Of a stretch of 64,000 bases of DNA, positions 8,250-32,308 are shown in pieces. The position numbers were made by a program, and so were the translations under genes. Under the pieces are notes generated by a model. The model was not told where the DNA came from and did no database searches. It worked only from the letters and a program-made list of their open reading frames with translations. This DNA is from Sulfurimonas xiamenensis. GTDB lineage: Bacteria; Campylobacterota; Campylobacteria; Campylobacterales; Sulfurimonadaceae. The stretch is from the NCBI RefSeq assembly GCF_009258045.1, contig NZ_CP041166.1, positions 1,054,001 to 1,118,000 of the forward strand, given 5' to 3'. Each line of letters begins with the position of its first letter. Position 1 is the first letter of the stretch.

Positions 8250-11200
8250 ATGCCGATATTTTTAAACTCAGTCCTAAAAACTTACAAACAAAATGAAGCC
8301 CTCATAGCTCAGAGATGGGCATCCTACCAAAACTTTTTGGCAAAAGTAGAGTTTGTAAAGAGCGTCAAAGAGGAGAAGTACCAAGACGGCTTCTTGCATG
8401 ACATCTTTGAAGAGTGCTTAGGCTACACGCTTGACAACACAAACCCGCAAGAGTTCAATCTTGAGCGGGAAAAGAAGAATGAAACGGACTCTAAAAAAGC
8501 AGACGGCGTCATCTATGTAGATGACGAAGTTATCGGCATAGTGGAGCTAAAAGACCAAAAAAGCAAAAATCTAGATGCCATTGAAGCTCAAGCATTTAAC
8601 TACCACAACTCACACTCAAACTCAAAATACATCATCATCTCAAACTTTAACGAGCTGAGATTTTACATAGACAAAAAAACCGCTTACGAGAAGTTTGACC
8701 TCTTTTACCTCACTTACGATGAGTTTAAAAAACTGCATCTTCTGCTAAGTTACGAGAGCATAAAAGAGGGCTTGCCGCTCAAACTAAAAGAGAAATCGGC
8801 AAACTTTGAACTCCAAATTTCTAAAGAACTGTACAAAGACTTCTCGCTCTTTAGAACACATCTTTTTGAAAATATAGTCAAAAACAACTCTCTTGACAAA
8901 TCCACTCTCCTCCGCCTTACCCAAAAACTCTGCGACCGCATTATATTTATGCTCTTTGCAGAAGACAGAGGACTGCTGAGACACAACACCATCAAAGAGA
9001 TACGAGAGGAGTTTAGAGCTCAAAAATTTACCTCTTACACACTTTACGACATCTATAAGTTCTACTTTAACGCCATAAACGAGGGAAATAAAAAGCTTGG
9101 CATCCCAAAATACAACGGCGGACTTTTTGCAAAAGATGAGCTTCTAGACACTCTCATCATAGATGACGAATACCTTGACATGAAAGCGCAAAAACTAAGC
9201 GACTACGACTTTATGAGCGATGTAGGCGTAAATATACTCGGACATATATTTGAGCAGTCACTTACAGACTTGGAGGAGCTTCAGGCAAACATAGAGCATA
9301 CCGACTTTGACAAGAAAAAATCCAAACGCAAAAAAGACGGCGTCTTCTACACCCCTGAGTACATCACCCGCTACATAGTCGATAACACTCTGGGCAAGCT
9401 CTGCCATGATAAAAAAGAGGAGCTGCAAATCGGCGGCGAGACTTTAATACCCTCAAACCCGAAAAAACTCAAAAAAGCAGAACAAACCCATAAACAAAAT
9501 ATCCTTGCCTACCGCGAATGGCTCACAAACCTAAAGATACTAGACCCAGCATGCGGAAGCGGCGCATTTCTAAACCAAGCGTTAGAGTTTCTCATAAACG
9601 AACACACTCTCGTGCGAGATATGCTTCTGCCTTTTGAGGACTTAACACTCGGCTACGAGATAGAAAAAGAGATACTAGAACACAACCTCTACGGCGTAGA
9701 CATCAACGAAGACGCAGTAGAGATAGCAAAACTCTCTTTGTGGCTTAGAACTGCTCATAAGGGAAGAGAGCTTACGAGTTTGGCGGAGAAAATAGTATGT
9801 GCAAACTCACTCCTTGAAATGCCGTTTGATGAGGGAAGTTTTGATGTGGTTATCGGCAATCCGCCGTATGTAAGAGTTCAAGGGCTAAAAAGCAACTATG
9901 AAGATGAAGCGAAGCTTTATGAAACAAAATACAAATCCGCAACAGGCAATTATGATTTGTATGCACTCTTTTTAGAGATGAGCTTTGGCATGTTAAAGCC
10001 TACTGGAAAACTAAGCTATATCTTGCCTCATAAATTTCTCATCTCTGATTTTGGAAGCGGCTTAAGGGGATTTTTGGCGCAAAACAGAGCAGTTGAGAGT
10101 CTGCTTCATTTTGGCAGTGAAATGGTTTTTGAAGATGCTTCAACCTACACATGCATCATCACACTTTCACACAACAACGAAAACTTAAATTTTAAAGCAA
10201 TAAGCCCAAAAGATATCTTTGAACCTTTCAACTATGATACTGTAAGCTATCAAAAACTAAGCAGCGAAAAATGGAATCTTTCAAATCAAGACACCACAAA
10301 GGTATTTGAGAAAATAAAACAACAACCTTTAATAGTAAAAGATGTTTTTGCAAAGATTTTTCAAGGAGCCAAAACAGGCAGTGATGATATATTTTTACTA
10401 TTCAAAACTCAAAATGGACTTTACTCAAAAGCACTTGATAAAATAGTCGAAGTTGAAAGTGGGCTTTTAAAACCAATGCTTAAAGGTGAAGATATAAGCC
10501 GTTATGCAAATTTGCAAAATAGATATTTTGTAATATTTCCATATCTTATTGAAGACGGTAAAGCAAAACCGATGAGTGAATCATATATCCAAGAAAATTT
10601 TCCAAATGGGCACGAGTACTTAAAAGCAAATGAAGAATATTTACGAGGGCGTGAAAAAGGAAGATTTAATAATCCAAAAGAGTGGTTTTTATTTAGTAGA
10701 AATCAAGGAGTTAATTACTTTCATTTCAGCAAAATTATTATTCAAGAATTAAGTCTTGGCTCTAATTTAACATTTGACGATGTCGGCATGTGTCATGCAG
10801 GTCAATACAGCATGGTCAAAAAAGCAGATATCCAAGAAGATGATAAATTTTTTCTTGCCTTGTTAAACTCTTCTCTGATGTGGTTTTTCATAAAAAATAC
10901 AAGCACGGAGTTTAGAGGCGGCTATTTTGCTTATCAAACAAAATATATTGAACCTTTTCCACTTCCAAAACTAAAAAGTTTAAACGAACAAAAGCCATTT
11001 GTAGAAAAAGCCGACAAAATGCTCTCACTCAAAAAACAGCTCCAAGAGACAAAACAAAACTTTACAAATGAGCTGGGGTTAGAAAAACTGACTAAAAAAC
11101 TCCAAAACTTTGAGGAGCTGGAGTTTGAGGAGTTTGTGACCGAATACGCAAAAGCAAAGAAACTAAAATTTGCCGACAAACTAGCAGAGCGAAACTTCAA

Positions 11201-11351
11201 ACAAGAGTGGCAAGCCATTTTTGAGAACGATAAAGCCCTTACAAGCAAGCTAAAAGACGAGATAATCAAAACCGACAAAGAGATAGACAAAATGGTCTAT
11301 AAACTCTATGGATTGAGCGAAGATGAGATTAAGATTGTGGAAAATAGCTGA
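8250..11351 (+). CDS. Type IIG restriction-modification enzyme (Eco57I-like, nuclease and N6-adenine methyltransferase in one chain)
   Basis: 1033 residues. The N-terminal nuclease domain has a PD-(D/E)XK-like pattern: KKADGVIYVDDEVIG followed by IVELKDQ (residues about 90-115). The methyltransferase domain has LDPACGSGAFLNQALEFL (AdoMet motif I, near residue 430) and FDVVIGNPPYVRVQG (motif IV NPPY, near residue 530). The C-terminal 400 residues form a TaqI-like specificity domain. Single-chain enzymes of this kind both methylate and cut and need no separate subunits. Base composition changes inside the gene: nuclease and methyltransferase regions are richer in C and G, about 10200-10950 (specificity region) is A/T rich, and the last 350 bases are richer again, as expected if recognition domains are exchanged. 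It overlaps the next gene by 1 nt. Confidence 0.88.
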   Translation: MPIFLNSVLKTYKQNEALIAQRWASYQNFLAKVEFVKSVKEEKYQDGFLHDIFEECLGYTLDNTNPQEFNLEREKKNETDSKKADGVIYVDDEVIGIVELKDQKSKNLDAIEAQAFNYHNSHSNSKYIIISNFNELRFYIDKKTAYEKFDLFYLTYDEFKKLHLLLSYESIKEGLPLKLKEKSANFELQISKELYKDFSLFRTHLFENIVKNNSLDKSTLLRLTQKLCDRIIFMLFAEDRGLLRHNTIKEIREEFRAQKFTSYTLYDIYKFYFNAINEGNKKLGIPKYNGGLFAKDELLDTLIIDDEYLDMKAQKLSDYDFMSDVGVNILGHIFEQSLTDLEELQANIEHTDFDKKKSKRKKDGVFYTPEYITRYIVDNTLGKLCHDKKEELQIGGETLIPSNPKKLKKAEQTHKQNILAYREWLTNLKILDPACGSGAFLNQALEFLINEHTLVRDMLLPFEDLTLGYEIEKEILEHNLYGVDINEDAVEIAKLSLWLRTAHKGRELTSLAEKIVCANSLLEMPFDEGSFDVVIGNPPYVRVQGLKSNYEDEAKLYETKYKSATGNYDLYALFLEMSFGMLKPTGKLSYILPHKFLISDFGSGLRGFLAQNRAVESLLHFGSEMVFEDASTYTCIITLSHNNENLNFKAISPKDIFEPFNYDTVSYQKLSSEKWNLSNQDTTKVFEKIKQQPLIVKDVFAKIFQGAKTGSDDIFLLFKTQNGLYSKALDKIVEVESGLLKPMLKGEDISRYANLQNRYFVIFPYLIEDGKAKPMSESYIQENFPNGHEYLKANEEYLRGREKGRFNNPKEWFLFSRNQGVNYFHFSKIIIQELSLGSNLTFDDVGMCHAGQYSMVKKADIQEDDKFFLALLNSSLMWFFIKNTSTEFRGGYFAYQTKYIEPFPLPKLKSLNEQKPFVEKADKMLSLKKQLQETKQNFTNELGLEKLTKKLQNFEELEFEEFVTEYAKAKKLKFADKLAERNFKQEWQAIFENDKALTSKLKDEIIKTDKEIDKMVYKLYGLSEDEIKIVENS

Positions 11352-11890
11352 TGCATTACTACAATCAATTAGTGACAAAAATTGGAAATATATTGAAACC
11401 TATTGTTGTAACACAACATAAAATTGGTAATATTCTCTCTTCTTATGCTCCAGAAATTATCCAAATAGCTAAAATCTTTGAAGAGCTTCCGCAAAGAACA
11501 CAGCAGGCTGTCATGCTGTTGGCTAATGAAGGATGGTTTATTGATGCAGATTTTGCCTTAAACTCATTATTGCATCTTGAAAATAAGACTGCCGAAGAGA
11601 TAGAAGAACTTTTAGTACACTATTATGAAGAAAAGATAGAGGAAGTTGAAAAAAAACTGATCAATAAATTTCCTGAACGAAAAACCATTCTAACAAAAGC
11701 TTTTTATGCACATAACGAGCAGATATACGAGCTCTCTGTTCCAGTTTTTTTGATCCAGTCAGATGGTATATGCCACGATATGACGGGACACCATTATTTT
11801 CATAAAAGATATGAATTGAAACAGTATCTTGAAACCAATTTATCTGAGCAAGTATTTAGTGATTATTTAGAACTACACCCCTGTGAATGA
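11351..11890 (+). CDS. Unknown protein coupled to the type IIG gene, 3' end inside a repeat
   Basis: 179 residues. The ATG shares one base with the TGA of the restriction-modification gene (TGATG), so translation is coupled. The middle is helical and charged (about residues 80-115). It is followed by FPERKTILTKAFYAHNE and LSVPVFLIQSDGICHD, which resembles a conserved segment of uncharacterised bacterial proteins that I recall but cannot name. The last five residues (LHPCE) and the stop are encoded by the dispersed repeat starting at 11874, so the native C-terminus may have been lost. A role with the restriction system is suggested only by position. Confidence 0.65.
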   Translation: MHYYNQLVTKIGNILKPIVVTQHKIGNILSSYAPEIIQIAKIFEELPQRTQQAVMLLANEGWFIDADFALNSLLHLENKTAEEIEELLVHYYEEKIEEVEKKLINKFPERKTILTKAFYAHNEQIYELSVPVFLIQSDGICHDMTGHHYFHKRYELKQYLETNLSEQVFSDYLELHPCE

Positions 11891-11988
11891 ATCTCCATTT
11901 TTTCTCTCTCGTTCCCATCGTCCTCGATGGGAATGCATACTGTAAAATAACCTGAAACAGACACTCCCACGCAGAAGCATGAGAGATA
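11874..11988 (+). repeat. Hairpin repeat, copy A (complete)
   Basis: Begins with the terminal motif TACACCCCTGTGAATGAATC, then a T-rich stretch, then the hairpin TTCCCATCG-TCCT-CGATGGGAA (11912-11933, 9 bp perfect stem), GCATACTGTAA, AACCTGAAA, and ends with ACTCCCACGCAGAAGCATG. The copy supplies the stop codon of the gene upstream and contains the first ATG of the DUF4160 gene downstream. Confidence 0.85.
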
Positions 11989-12267: not shown

Positions 12268-12510
12268 ATGAATACTTCAATTACAAGAGTTGATTTCGGT
12301 GATAAAATTTATATCTACTTAAAAAGCAGTGATATTTTGACTATACCTTACAGTTATACCAAAAAAATTCAAAATACAAAAAAAGAGCAGCTTTTAAACT
12401 ATCGTATTATTGGCGGCGGTATAGGAGTTCATTTTGAAGAGATAGATGAGGATATTTCACTGAGCGGTATTATTGCATATAAAATAAATCATGAGCTAAA
12501 AGCTTCTTAA
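12268..12510 (+). CDS. DUF2442 domain protein
   Basis: 80 residues. The pattern of a beta-rich start (VDFGDKIYIYLKSSDILTIPY), a helix with KKEQLLNYRIIG, and then GIGVHFEEIDEDISLSGII matches DUF2442, whose end is typically GxxIxWxxLDEDIxxxGLL. It starts 1 nt after the DUF4160 gene and ends 3 nt before repeat copy B. The pair is thus enclosed between two copies of the same repeat. Function unknown; the two probably act together. Confidence 0.72.
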   Translation: MNTSITRVDFGDKIYIYLKSSDILTIPYSYTKKIQNTKKEQLLNYRIIGGGIGVHFEEIDEDISLSGIIAYKINHELKAS

Positions 12511-12512
12511 AA

Positions 12513-12573
12513 TACGCCCTCTTCTCGTTCCTATCGTCCTCGATGGGAATGCATACTGTAACAATAACCTGAC
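12513..12573 (+). repeat. Hairpin repeat, copy B (headless)
   Basis: Carries TACGCCC, TTCTCGTTCC and TATCG-TCCT-CGATGGGAATGCATACTGTAA, then AACCTGA. The leading motif is shortened and the right part is missing; copy C follows about 10 nt later in the same orientation. One base of the hairpin's left arm differs from copy A (CCTATCG instead of CCCATCG). Confidence 0.8.
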
Positions 12574-12582
12574 ATATAAAAC

Positions 12583-12700
12583 TACACCCCAGTGAATGAA
12601 TCTCCACTTTTTTTCTTATTCACAGCCTCCTGCGATGGGAATGCGTACCATCAAACAACCTGAAATACGCACTCCTATGTAGGAACATGGGAGCGAGTAA
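12583..12700 (+). repeat. Hairpin repeat, copy C (complete)
   Basis: TACACCCCAGTGAATGAATC, then T-rich sequence, TGCGATGGGAATGCGTACC, AACCTGAAA, and ACTCCTATGTAGGAACATGG followed by GAGCGAGTAA. The left arm of the first hairpin is decayed; the right-hand hairpin CTCCTATGTAGGAACATGGGAG is well kept. It is in the same orientation as copies A, B and D. Confidence 0.8.
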
Positions 12701-12718
12701 TACCATATAAAATTAAAC

Positions 12719-12730
12719 TACGCCCCTAAT
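12719..12730 (+). repeat. Terminal motif half-site at the DUF2231 stop codon
   Basis: TACGCCCCTAAT matches 11 of 12 bases of the inner end unit TACACCCCTAAT seen at the right end of the RAYT element. The CTA inside it (12726-12728) is the TAG stop of the minus-strand DUF2231 gene. Confidence 0.55.
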
Positions 12731-13205
12731 ATTTACTAATTTTTTGCTCATCAACTCTTTGTATAGCAACACTCTTATCGATACCTGCAGAGTATTTATA
12801 AACAAGTATTCCCCCGCTTCTTCCTTGATAAAGTGAAACTATCAACAGAACTACTATTAAAACAAGAGAGACATTCTCATATAAAAGAGAGTCTTTAGAA
12901 ATGGCAAGCCATTTTACTATAGAAGTCGCTATTAAAATAGCTACAACAATAAAGCCGAATATTTTATGGCTATTTAAAGAGCTTACACCTTCTTGAATGA
13001 TATTTTGATTTGCCATAATTTTTTGTGCATCTTCTATTCCGCTGATTATAGCGAGAAAAGATGCCAGCATCGCAAAACCGACAATTCTAAATGCTGCTTT
13101 GGAATAAGCTTTGTCTTTTGTAATGAAGAAAGTAAATTGGGAAAACAAAGCAATAACTGGTAATGCTACCACAAAATGTACAAACGGAGGATGTAATATA
13201 TTCAT
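12726..13205 (-). CDS. DUF2231 family membrane protein
   Basis: 159 residues with about four hydrophobic segments: LHPPFVHFVVALPVIALFSQF, FRIVGFAMLASFLAIISGIED, HKIFGFIVVAILIATSI and VSLVLIVVLLIVSLYQG. The LHPxxVHFP-like start and the GxxDA/ED end of helix two are typical of DUF2231 (COG4244), predicted inner-membrane proteins of unknown role. The stop codon lies in a copy of the repeat's end motif. It is flanked on both sides by repeat copies (C and D). Function unknown. Confidence 0.75.
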   Translation of the reverse strand: MNILHPPFVHFVVALPVIALFSQFTFFITKDKAYSKAAFRIVGFAMLASFLAIISGIEDAQKIMANQNIIQEGVSSLNSHKIFGFIVVAILIATSIVKWLAISKDSLLYENVSLVLIVVLLIVSLYQGRSGGILVYKYSAGIDKSVAIQRVDEQKISKY

Positions 13206-13281
13206 TTTTCTTCCTTGTATTTAGAGAATACATAAATTATAGTATTAAAAAAATTAATAATATATTAAATGCTTTTCAAGT

Positions 13282-13413
13282 TACACCCCAATGAATGAAT
13301 CTCCACCTAAGAGATTTTCTAGTTTTTTCTCGTTCCCATGTTCTCCGTGAAAACACATACCGTACAACAACATGAAATAAACACTTTCATAAAGGATCAT
13401 GCGAGCATAATAA
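13282..13413 (+). repeat. Hairpin repeat, copy D (diverged)
   Basis: TACACCCCAATGAATGAATC at the left end, then TTTTTTCTCGTTCCCATG, a loop with TTCTCCGTG, ACACATACCGTA, CAACATGAAA, ACACTTTCAT and GATCATGCGAGCATAATAA. The element can be aligned along its whole length to copy A, but the stem has lost pairing, so it is an older copy. It lies between the DUF2231 and FmdE-like genes. Confidence 0.7.
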
Positions 13414-13467
13414 ATACGAAGTAATAATTTTGTTCACAGGATTTATTTAGAAAACTCGATGATGTGT

Positions 13468-30451: not shown

Positions 30452-31062
30452 ATACACCCCTGAAATACACCCCTGTGAATGGAAATACACCCCTGTGAAT
30501 GAATCTCCACTTTTTAAAAAATTATATACTCTAAGTTTTAACTAAAATCTTTCAATTTGCAATATGTTTAATTGTAATGAATATAAATAGTTAAAATTCA
30601 CATGATTCATAATTAAAAAATAGGATTGACAAATGCCGACAAGACTGAGAGTTGATTTAGCAGGGTATCATCATATTATAAATCGTGGAGTAAACCTTTG
30701 TGATGTCTTTAACTGCAATGATGACAAAGAGATGTTTTTACAAATCATCAATAAAAGTGCTACTCTTCATAAAATAATATTACATGATTACTGTTTGATG
30801 GACAATCACTATCACTTGCTGATAGAAACAAAAAATACTCAAAGAAGACGGTATCTTACATGTAAGGCAAGAGAAACAATTCCAAGAGCATTTTTATGAT
30901 GTTTGTACAAAAATAGATAGAAACTTAGCAATACTTAACGCATACCAAGACGGTTACTCTCAAGCAAGCATAGCAACTTATTTGAATGTATCAAAATCAT
31001 TGATAAGCAAAGTTGTAAAAAGTGGAGATTCATTCACAGGGGTGTAATTAGGGGTGTAATTA
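30452..31062 (+). mobile_element. Decayed RAYT element with inverted terminal repeats
   Basis: The left end has TACACCCCTG at 30453, TACACCCCTGTGAAT at 30466 and TACACCCCTGTGAATGAATC at 30486, that is three tandem starts of the same motif ending CTCCACTTTTT. The right end is the exact reverse complement, AGTGGAGATTCATTCACAGG at 31021, followed by a further GGGGTGTAA unit. Between them is a broken REP-associated tyrosine (Y1, HUH-type) transposase gene. The same end motif heads the intergenic repeats at 11.9-13.3 kb. The inner arms at 30486-30513 and 31021-31046 match at 26 of 26 bases compared by eye. Confidence 0.85.
30633..31047 (+). pseudogene. REP-associated tyrosine transposase (RAYT), frameshifted and internally deleted
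   Basis: The first 80 residues are intact: MPTRLRVDLAGYHHIINRGV is the usual RAYT start, and LHDYCLMDNHYHLLIETK carries the HUH-type metal motif (HYH). The frame then breaks near 30840 and stops at 30899. The +1 frame continues as DVCTKIDRNLAILNAYQDGY, a helix-turn-helix SQASIATYLNVSKSLISKVV, and ends SGDSFTGV-stop. Intact RAYTs have about 250-330 residues, so roughly half, including the catalytic tyrosine region, is missing. The last eight codons and the stop are the inverted repeat itself. It cannot be active. Confidence 0.88.
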
Positions 31063-32308
31063 CAAGTACTATAATAATTACTGCCAAAGGGATACTAAAG
31101 GCAACAAAGAGCTGGTTTCCCAACTCTTTGTTGCCCACTGTATAAGCAATAGCAAGTTTTGTTATAGAGTTGGAGAATGTTGCGATAACGATTCCGGTAA
31201 ATGCAGTATGCAGTATAAGTTTTTCATCTGTATAGAGCGTGCTTAGCGAGAGGGTTATAGCATCAACATCACTTACTCCTGATAGCAATGAAGAGAGATA
31301 GACCCCTGTGCTTCCAACCCAATCCTGAAGCAGTGATGTAGTACCAAATACGATACCAAAGAGTAAACCAAACTTCAGTGCCTCTTTTAATTCCAATGGA
31401 TTTTTATACATAAAGTCCACATCAATCCGGCTTTTCTCAGAGCGTTTATATAGATAATAAATATAAATATATCCCGCTATCGTGGCTAAAAGATAAGCAG
31501 GCAAAATTTTCATAGCGATATCGGTATTTATAAATGCTGATACGATAATAATCCTAACATACATTGTTGTACAAGCAAGTGCAATGACCGAAGCTAATTG
31601 GTGAGTTGTTTTATTTTTATCATCAACTTTTTTTGAAAAAGTGATGGTAGTTGCCGTAGAGGATAAAAAACCTCCAAAAAAACCAGCCACCATTATGCCT
31701 TTGGATACTCCTATGAGACGAGCAGCTATATAACCTGCGAAAGAGAGACCGGAAATAAGAACAACCATCATCCAAATAAAATATGGATTGATTATTCCAT
31801 AAGGATCAATGGTTTTGTTGGGTAATATTGGAAGAACAATGAAAGTAATCAATAAAAAAAGCACCATTGACTCCAGATCTTTCTTTTTGGTACTGTCTGC
31901 GAGTTGTAATACATTGCTGCGTATATTTAAAATAAAAATTATTGCAACAGTTGTAAATGTAGCAAACATATATAAACCTTCATAAACGAGCATACCAACC
32001 AAAAATGCAGCAATAGCTGCGAACTCTGTGGTGGTACCAATTTTTTCATGACGAACTGCTCGGATAACGAAAGAACTTATAAGCAGTGTCCCAAATATAA
32101 AAGTGATTGCTATTGTAATCCAAATATAATCCGCTTTGAAATGTCCCGCTAAAACACCAAGTAAAGATATAATAGCAAAACTTCTTGTTCCGGTAAAAGT
32201 GATACTCTTATCTCTAAGAGCAAAACTTATCTCTCTTTGCAGACCAATTGAGAAGCCTAGCGCTATGCTAAGTAATATGGATTTTGCCGTTGTGAAATCT
32301 AGTTCCAT
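31034..32308 (-). CDS. MgtC/SapB and DUF4010 family membrane protein
   Basis: 424 residues with about twelve membrane helices. The N-terminal MgtC-like part has SIALGFSIGLQREISFAL and FTGTRSFAIISLLG. The C-terminal DUF4010 part has GGFLSSTATTITFSKK and LLSGVSDVDAITLSLSTLY. It is an inner-membrane protein, perhaps a transporter or regulator of ion balance; the function of full-length members is unknown. Its last nine residues (VITPLITPL) and the TGA stop are encoded by the right end of the RAYT element, where two copies of the ATTACACCCCT unit give the repeated ITPL. The original C-terminus was therefore replaced or extended. Confidence 0.82.
   Translation of the reverse strand: MELDFTTAKSILLSIALGFSIGLQREISFALRDKSITFTGTRSFAIISLLGVLAGHFKADYIWITIAITFIFGTLLISSFVIRAVRHEKIGTTTEFAAIAAFLVGMLVYEGLYMFATFTTVAIIFILNIRSNVLQLADSTKKKDLESMVLFLLITFIVLPILPNKTIDPYGIINPYFIWMMVVLISGLSFAGYIAARLIGVSKGIMVAGFFGGFLSSTATTITFSKKVDDKNKTTHQLASVIALACTTMYVRIIIVSAFINTDIAMKILPAYLLATIAGYIYIYYLYKRSEKSRIDVDFMYKNPLELKEALKFGLLFGIVFGTTSLLQDWVGSTGVYLSSLLSGVSDVDAITLSLSTLYTDEKLILHTAFTGIVIATFSNSITKLAIAYTVGNKELGNQLFVAFSIPLAVIIIVLVITPLITPL

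Follow-up and report, generated by a model that had tools for sequence, protein, structure and literature searches.

A 33-nt transposase end repeat of Sulfurimonas lies behind genes mostly in one orientation and supplies some of them with stop codons

Several genes in a 64-kb window of the Sulfurimonas xiamenensis chromosome (the window being the whole stretch of DNA analysed here) end inside copies of one short repeat that provides their last residues and stop codons. Is the repeat tolerated at gene ends because it terminates whatever frame runs into it, or is the supply of stops a consequence of where the repeat comes to lie? The repeat has the 33-nt consensus AAAAGTGGAGATTCATTCAC[A/T]GGGGTGTAATTT and is present as five full copies in the window, a number reached in 0 of 100 shuffles. 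The whole genome, a single contig of 1.92 Mb, holds 7 copies at ≤3 mismatches to a longer pattern. The repeat was found in 54 of 120 genus genomes scanned, none of which contained a match to a reversed control pattern, and it is found in further genera of the same family too. An alignment of 155 copies from which duplicates had been removed displayed a sharp conserved block of 33 nt with flanks free of conservation. The copy census was drawn from fetched genome stretches, and its extended set comprises 215 copies, of which 29 recognised transposase ends and one more (L042) were set aside to leave 185 solo copies. Genes were defined by codon-usage calls made in the analysis rather than by curated annotation. 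The features of the window are collected in the table.

Table. Positions of the repeat copies, the transposase gene and the genes that end in the repeat, counted from the first letter of the window.
Feature	Position	Strand	Remark
Gene with its end cut by copy A	11351-11890	+	179 aa
Repeat copy A	11871-11903	-	gives HPCE and TGA (11888-11890) to gene 11351-11890
Repeat copy B	12580-12612	-	intergenic, behind gene 12268-12510
Half-site TTAGGGGCGTA	12719-12729	-	contains TAG of the DUF2231 gene
DUF2231 gene	12726-13205	-	about 4 residues (ISKY) longer than homologues
Repeat copy C	13280-13312	-	intergenic, diverged
Right-end duplication at the 30483 copy	30462-30481 and 30482-30501		20 nt
5' terminal repeat copy	30483-30515	-	inverted, upstream of the RAYT gene; right end duplicated
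RAYT/TIRYT pseudogene	30633-31047	+	N-terminal 88-aa frame (Y1_Tnp), C-terminal part in another frame
3' terminal repeat copy	31017-31049	+	codes the RAYT C-terminus KSGDSFTGV; TAA at 31045-31047
MgtC/DUF4010 membrane protein gene	31034-32308	-	last residues and stop from the repeat
Right-end duplication at the 31017 copy	31039-31062	+	GGGGTGTAATTA twice

A second repeat family (TCTCGTTCCCATCGTCCTCGATGGGAATGCATAC...) directly adjoins copies A and B (11907-11945 and 12523-12561) and also occurs at 12633-12703 and 13345-13415. Several copies of the 33-nt repeat in other genomes likewise have a gaacgag-like sequence before them, and one family may be nested in the other, or both may share targets. 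In one relative (G125, loci L230-L243) there are 21 copies of the 33-nt repeat, several of them about 107 nt from contig ends. The assembly was apparently interrupted there by a longer repeated element, which may have moved recently.

The 33-nt repeat is the terminal inverted repeat of a TIRYT-type HUH tyrosine transposase, a class assigned from motifs. Two inverted copies flank the transposase (RAYT) gene of the window, which is broken and measures about 415 nt versus about 780 nt in relatives, i.e. about half the length. In most intact relatives of the genus and family, an inverted copy lies 34-117 nt before the transposase ATG. In most intact Sulfurimonas relatives the last ~9 residues, SGDS(F/L)TGV, are coded by the 3' copy, and the stop usually lies in that copy too (SGDSFTGV-TAA). 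Some relatives have lost this stop, and their reading frame continues (SGDSLTGVVK, SGDSFTGVIGTGVIGRK). A broader set of named loci was drawn from Sulfurimonas, Sulfurovum, Sulfurospirillum, Nitratifractor and others, and included quite different repeat sequences; a few of its 41 usable loci come from the same genomes as the Sulfurimonas-type comparison. Significant inverted arms were detected at 34 of these 41 loci, and at 31 of the 34 the 3' arm starts within the coding sequence. Thus, overlap of the 3' repeat with the RAYT end is a general trait of the group.

The motifs on which the class rests include a Y1_Tnp domain (E 1.2e-13 in an intact relative) and the NHYH and YIEHNP motifs of the transposase sequence. 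A possible C-terminal helix-turn-helix is hinted at by an HTH_38 match whose E of 0.005 falls below that profile's cut-off. Placed by these motifs, the transposase probably belongs to HUH subclass 2.1. At another locus (L001, 1501-1664; genome position ~681.5 kb, behind proB), two inverted copies enclose only the last part of a RAYT gene, an arrangement that resembles a miniature non-autonomous element.

The initial annotation, made from the sequence of the window, had listed four genes that end in the repeat. All four endings were confirmed. The MgtC/DUF4010 gene ends VITPLITPL-TGA in a repeat end, its TGA (31034-31036) lying within the repeat core on the minus strand of the 3' terminal copy; gene 11351 ends LELHPCE-TGA within copy A; and the TAG of the DUF2231 gene (12726-12728, minus strand) falls in the half-site TTAGGGGCGTAG. 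The fourth ending, SGDSFTGV-TAA of the RAYT in its own repeat, is correct for the frame, but the gene to which it belongs in the window is a pseudogene. The residues ITPLITPL represent two tandem repeat ends, GGGGTGTAATTA at 31039-31050 and at 31051-31062, read on the minus strand, and they are doubled because the right end of the repeat was duplicated in tandem.

What happens to a gene that ends in this way? The closest homologue of the DUF4010 protein (45% identity) has nine other end residues at near-equal length, which indicates that the tail was swapped. For gene 11351, two homologues were found at ~30% identity (234 and 257 aa), and both share a C-terminal part that gene 11351 is missing, so the gene was probably cut short. 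Gene 11351 lies directly 3' of an Eco57I-type restriction-modification gene (8250-11351), with overlapping start and stop, and has only these two distant relatives among 397 phylum genomes. Homologues of the DUF2231 protein at 79-82% identity end near the position of DEQK, and ISKY is extra here. Repeat-coded tails recur in unrelated genes as ITPL, ITPQ, LHPCE, LHPSE and SRPSE. For example, a peroxiredoxin-like protein ends LIKITPL while its homologue extends 15 residues more, and a hybrid kinase ends ITPQITPQ, in parallel to ITPLITPL. A methyltransferase fragment (L209) ends at LHPCD and was probably cut well before its normal end. Since gene 11351 and probably this fragment were cut early, not all cases are tolerated insertions at gene ends. 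Homologues that lack the repeat have different ends, and neighbouring genes do take stops and residues from it, as had been proposed. To judge from these comparisons, insertion at a gene end can swap the tail (DUF4010), lengthen it (DUF2231) or, probably, remove it (gene 11351).

The doubling seen in the DUF4010 tail is part of a wider pattern. The right, gene-facing end of the repeat is tandemly duplicated together with several nucleotides of local flank in 23 of 215 copies, versus 1 of 215 for the left end and 1 for a distant control. Such duplications could arise either by slippage or by repeated end-joining.

The copies are also strongly oriented to transcription. Between co-directional genes, the GGGGTGTA end faces the stop of the upstream gene 82 to 10 (82 to 11 before removal of the transposase end L042), and 63 to 6 when each upstream gene family is given one vote. 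The count is 25 to 0 for copies identical to the consensus and 57 to 10 for those that have diverged from it, a difference that is not significant (p = 0.057). This comparison hints that the bias is already there at insertion rather than built by selection. Slow selection against reversed copies is not favoured by the age comparison, itself not significant at that p value. In the literature searched, which covered few subscription papers, no description of a comparable orientation bias was found for TIRYT repeats.

Could the repeat be tolerated at gene ends because stops in most of its frames end any entered gene cleanly? The recurrence of repeat-coded tails speaks for this explanation, as do the 12 stops found in repeat cores, all of which are read in the sense direction and occupy closed frames. 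The sense direction leaves one frame open, for which no convincing case of read-through was found, whereas frame alone predicts about 6 (p ~0.01-0.04, hand-computed on small numbers). This gap lends weak support to a small selective role of stop supply. However, the stop content of the motif is not above that of local DNA. In four of the five window copies, one strand has two stops and closes 2 of 3 frames, while the opposite strand has at most one stop and closes 0-1; the fifth (13280) has three stops on one strand and two on the opposite one. A random 33-mer drawn from the window has on average 1.82 stops per strand, with 1.31 of its frames closed. The statement that the motif ends any frame it meets is therefore false: stops in two frames of one strand do occur in four of five copies, but the other strand closes 0-1. 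An excess of gene stops within copies, which this explanation had predicted, is likewise absent. The 185 solo copies divide into 165 that are intergenic, 16 that touch a stop, 2 that touch a start and 2 inside short called genes, and no solo copy lies within any long gene. Random placements fall inside genes in 69% of cases, and of the non-interior ones 13.5% touch a stop and 9.4% a start. Against these values, stops are touched by 16 of 183 copies (8.7%, p = 0.065 toward fewer), gene starts are strongly avoided (p = 6e-6) and gene interiors more strongly still (p = 4e-91), where all p values assume independent copies; a first copy set gave the same placement picture. Furthermore, the orientation bias is seen near the stop and equally strongly tens of bases past it, where repeat stops play no part. 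These results make tolerance through stops a quite improbable explanation. Stop sharing appears instead as a real but ordinary by-product of landing behind genes in AT-rich DNA.

Position and direction together could be explained if the copies were retained as transcription terminators or 3'-end signals that act in the sense direction. Copies do lie a short way past stops, at a median gap of 51 nt, and the sense orientation finishes in a T-run (CCACTTTT). However, structure in the sense RNA is weak (mean -2.5 versus -1.55 kcal/mol for shuffled sequences) and the T-run has no terminator hairpin to go with it, in tests that cover intrinsic rather than Rho-dependent ends; the terminator scan has low power, detecting terminators in 3-6% of gaps in these genomes. 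A terminator role is thus unlikely. Direction could also arise if insertion used one replication strand and genes were co-oriented with replication; IS200/IS605 relatives direct their insertions to the lagging-strand template (PMC6006769). Nevertheless, in 20 samples of 20 kb from this genome, with the origin set from dnaA at base 499, only ~55% of genes run in the direction of replication, which cannot yield 63 to 6, and even against a 60:40 expectation the orientation has p = 9e-9. Replication as the source of direction is accordingly very hard to credit. A more specific proposal assigns direction to transcription and not to replication: solo ends would insert strand-specifically where transcription opens the DNA at the 3' ends of genes, and the gene-facing end would be the site of repeated end-joining that leaves tandem duplications. 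This proposal is tentative and somewhat unlikely as a whole.

The reading preferred here, with a probability of roughly 0.72, is that solo ends of a TIRYT transposase spread and settle behind genes, the supply of stops being a consequence. The element carries one repeat end before the transposase ATG and the other over the last codons and stop, as seen in relatives. Solo copies of the end would have spread through the genome, presumably moved by the transposase in trans. As the census shows, surviving copies are nearly all intergenic, in many cases a short way behind 3' ends and with GGGGTGTA toward the upstream gene. Where a copy lands just before a native stop, the frame enters the repeat and ends at one of two TGA codons, and such genes swap, gain or lose C-terminal residues, as is seen against their homologues. 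The fixed direction may arise because copies enter the strand that transcription exposes at gene ends, or because reversed copies are rapidly lost.

That REPs can supply stops has been in the literature since 2013 (PMC3733652), and stop donation by RAYT-linked repeats is already known; the window provides a clean example with support from homologues. What goes beyond the literature searched is the orientation to transcription and the duplication of the gene-facing end, and directionality is the unexplained part that is worth following. Three measurable facts are thereby added for a poorly studied transposase group: a 3' repeat in the coding end, a one-way orientation and an end duplication. 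The first of these holds across relatives with different repeat sequences, in which the 3' repeat is part of the transposase coding end. Together, the three facts make the target and strand of the repeat directly testable.

How does the repeat compare with known systems? Palindromic REPs and the RAYTs tied to them (Nunvar 2010, PMC2817692; GTAG REPs, PMC3733652) are similar in that, in the passages describing them, the repeats are short, extragenic, RAYT-tied and close behind genes; they bear a GTAG tag there, whereas the present consensus has no GTAG. An identity as a palindromic REP was rejected, as variation breaks both candidate stems with no compensatory change. REPIN pairs were rejected too, as the 155 copies are mostly single and few have an inverted partner within 700 nt. 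The probable home of the transposase, HUH subclass 2.1 or RAYT group 1 (PMC6006769), shares the NHYH and Y..NP motifs and a C-terminal extension with a possible helix-turn-helix likeness, and is prevalent in epsilonproteobacteria, as here. That study found no REP-like sequences near subclass 2.1 genes, whereas clear inverted repeats and scattered solo copies are present here; it also suggested that subclass 2.1 corresponds to TIRYT.

The closest likeness is to TIRYTs and TIRtrons (Di Nocera, De Gregorio, Rocco 2013, PMC3733652). In the passages of that paper on these elements, as here, a tyrosine transposase gene is flanked by terminal inverted repeats in place of palindromic REPs, the 3' repeat can overlap the gene ('3'ov'), and further repeats are found at other genomic sites singly, paired or grouped. 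A GGGGWSAS motif is described there for many TIRYT members, not all; GGGGTGTA fits its first six positions only, and some relatives with CTGACCCC, i.e. GGGGTCAG, match it fully. The TIRtron passages make no mention of a strong orientation to transcription or of right-end duplications such as those found here. On these likenesses, the repeat and its transposase can be filed with the TIRYT/TIRtron kind, with binding and cutting of the repeat as putative activities. A parallel in outcome comes from RU-1 and similar enterobacterial repeats (Delihas 2007, PMC2759123). They are longer (103-168 bp), belong to a different family and have no link to this transposase, but they likewise remove the native stop and add repeat-coded C-terminal residues to the genes that they enter.
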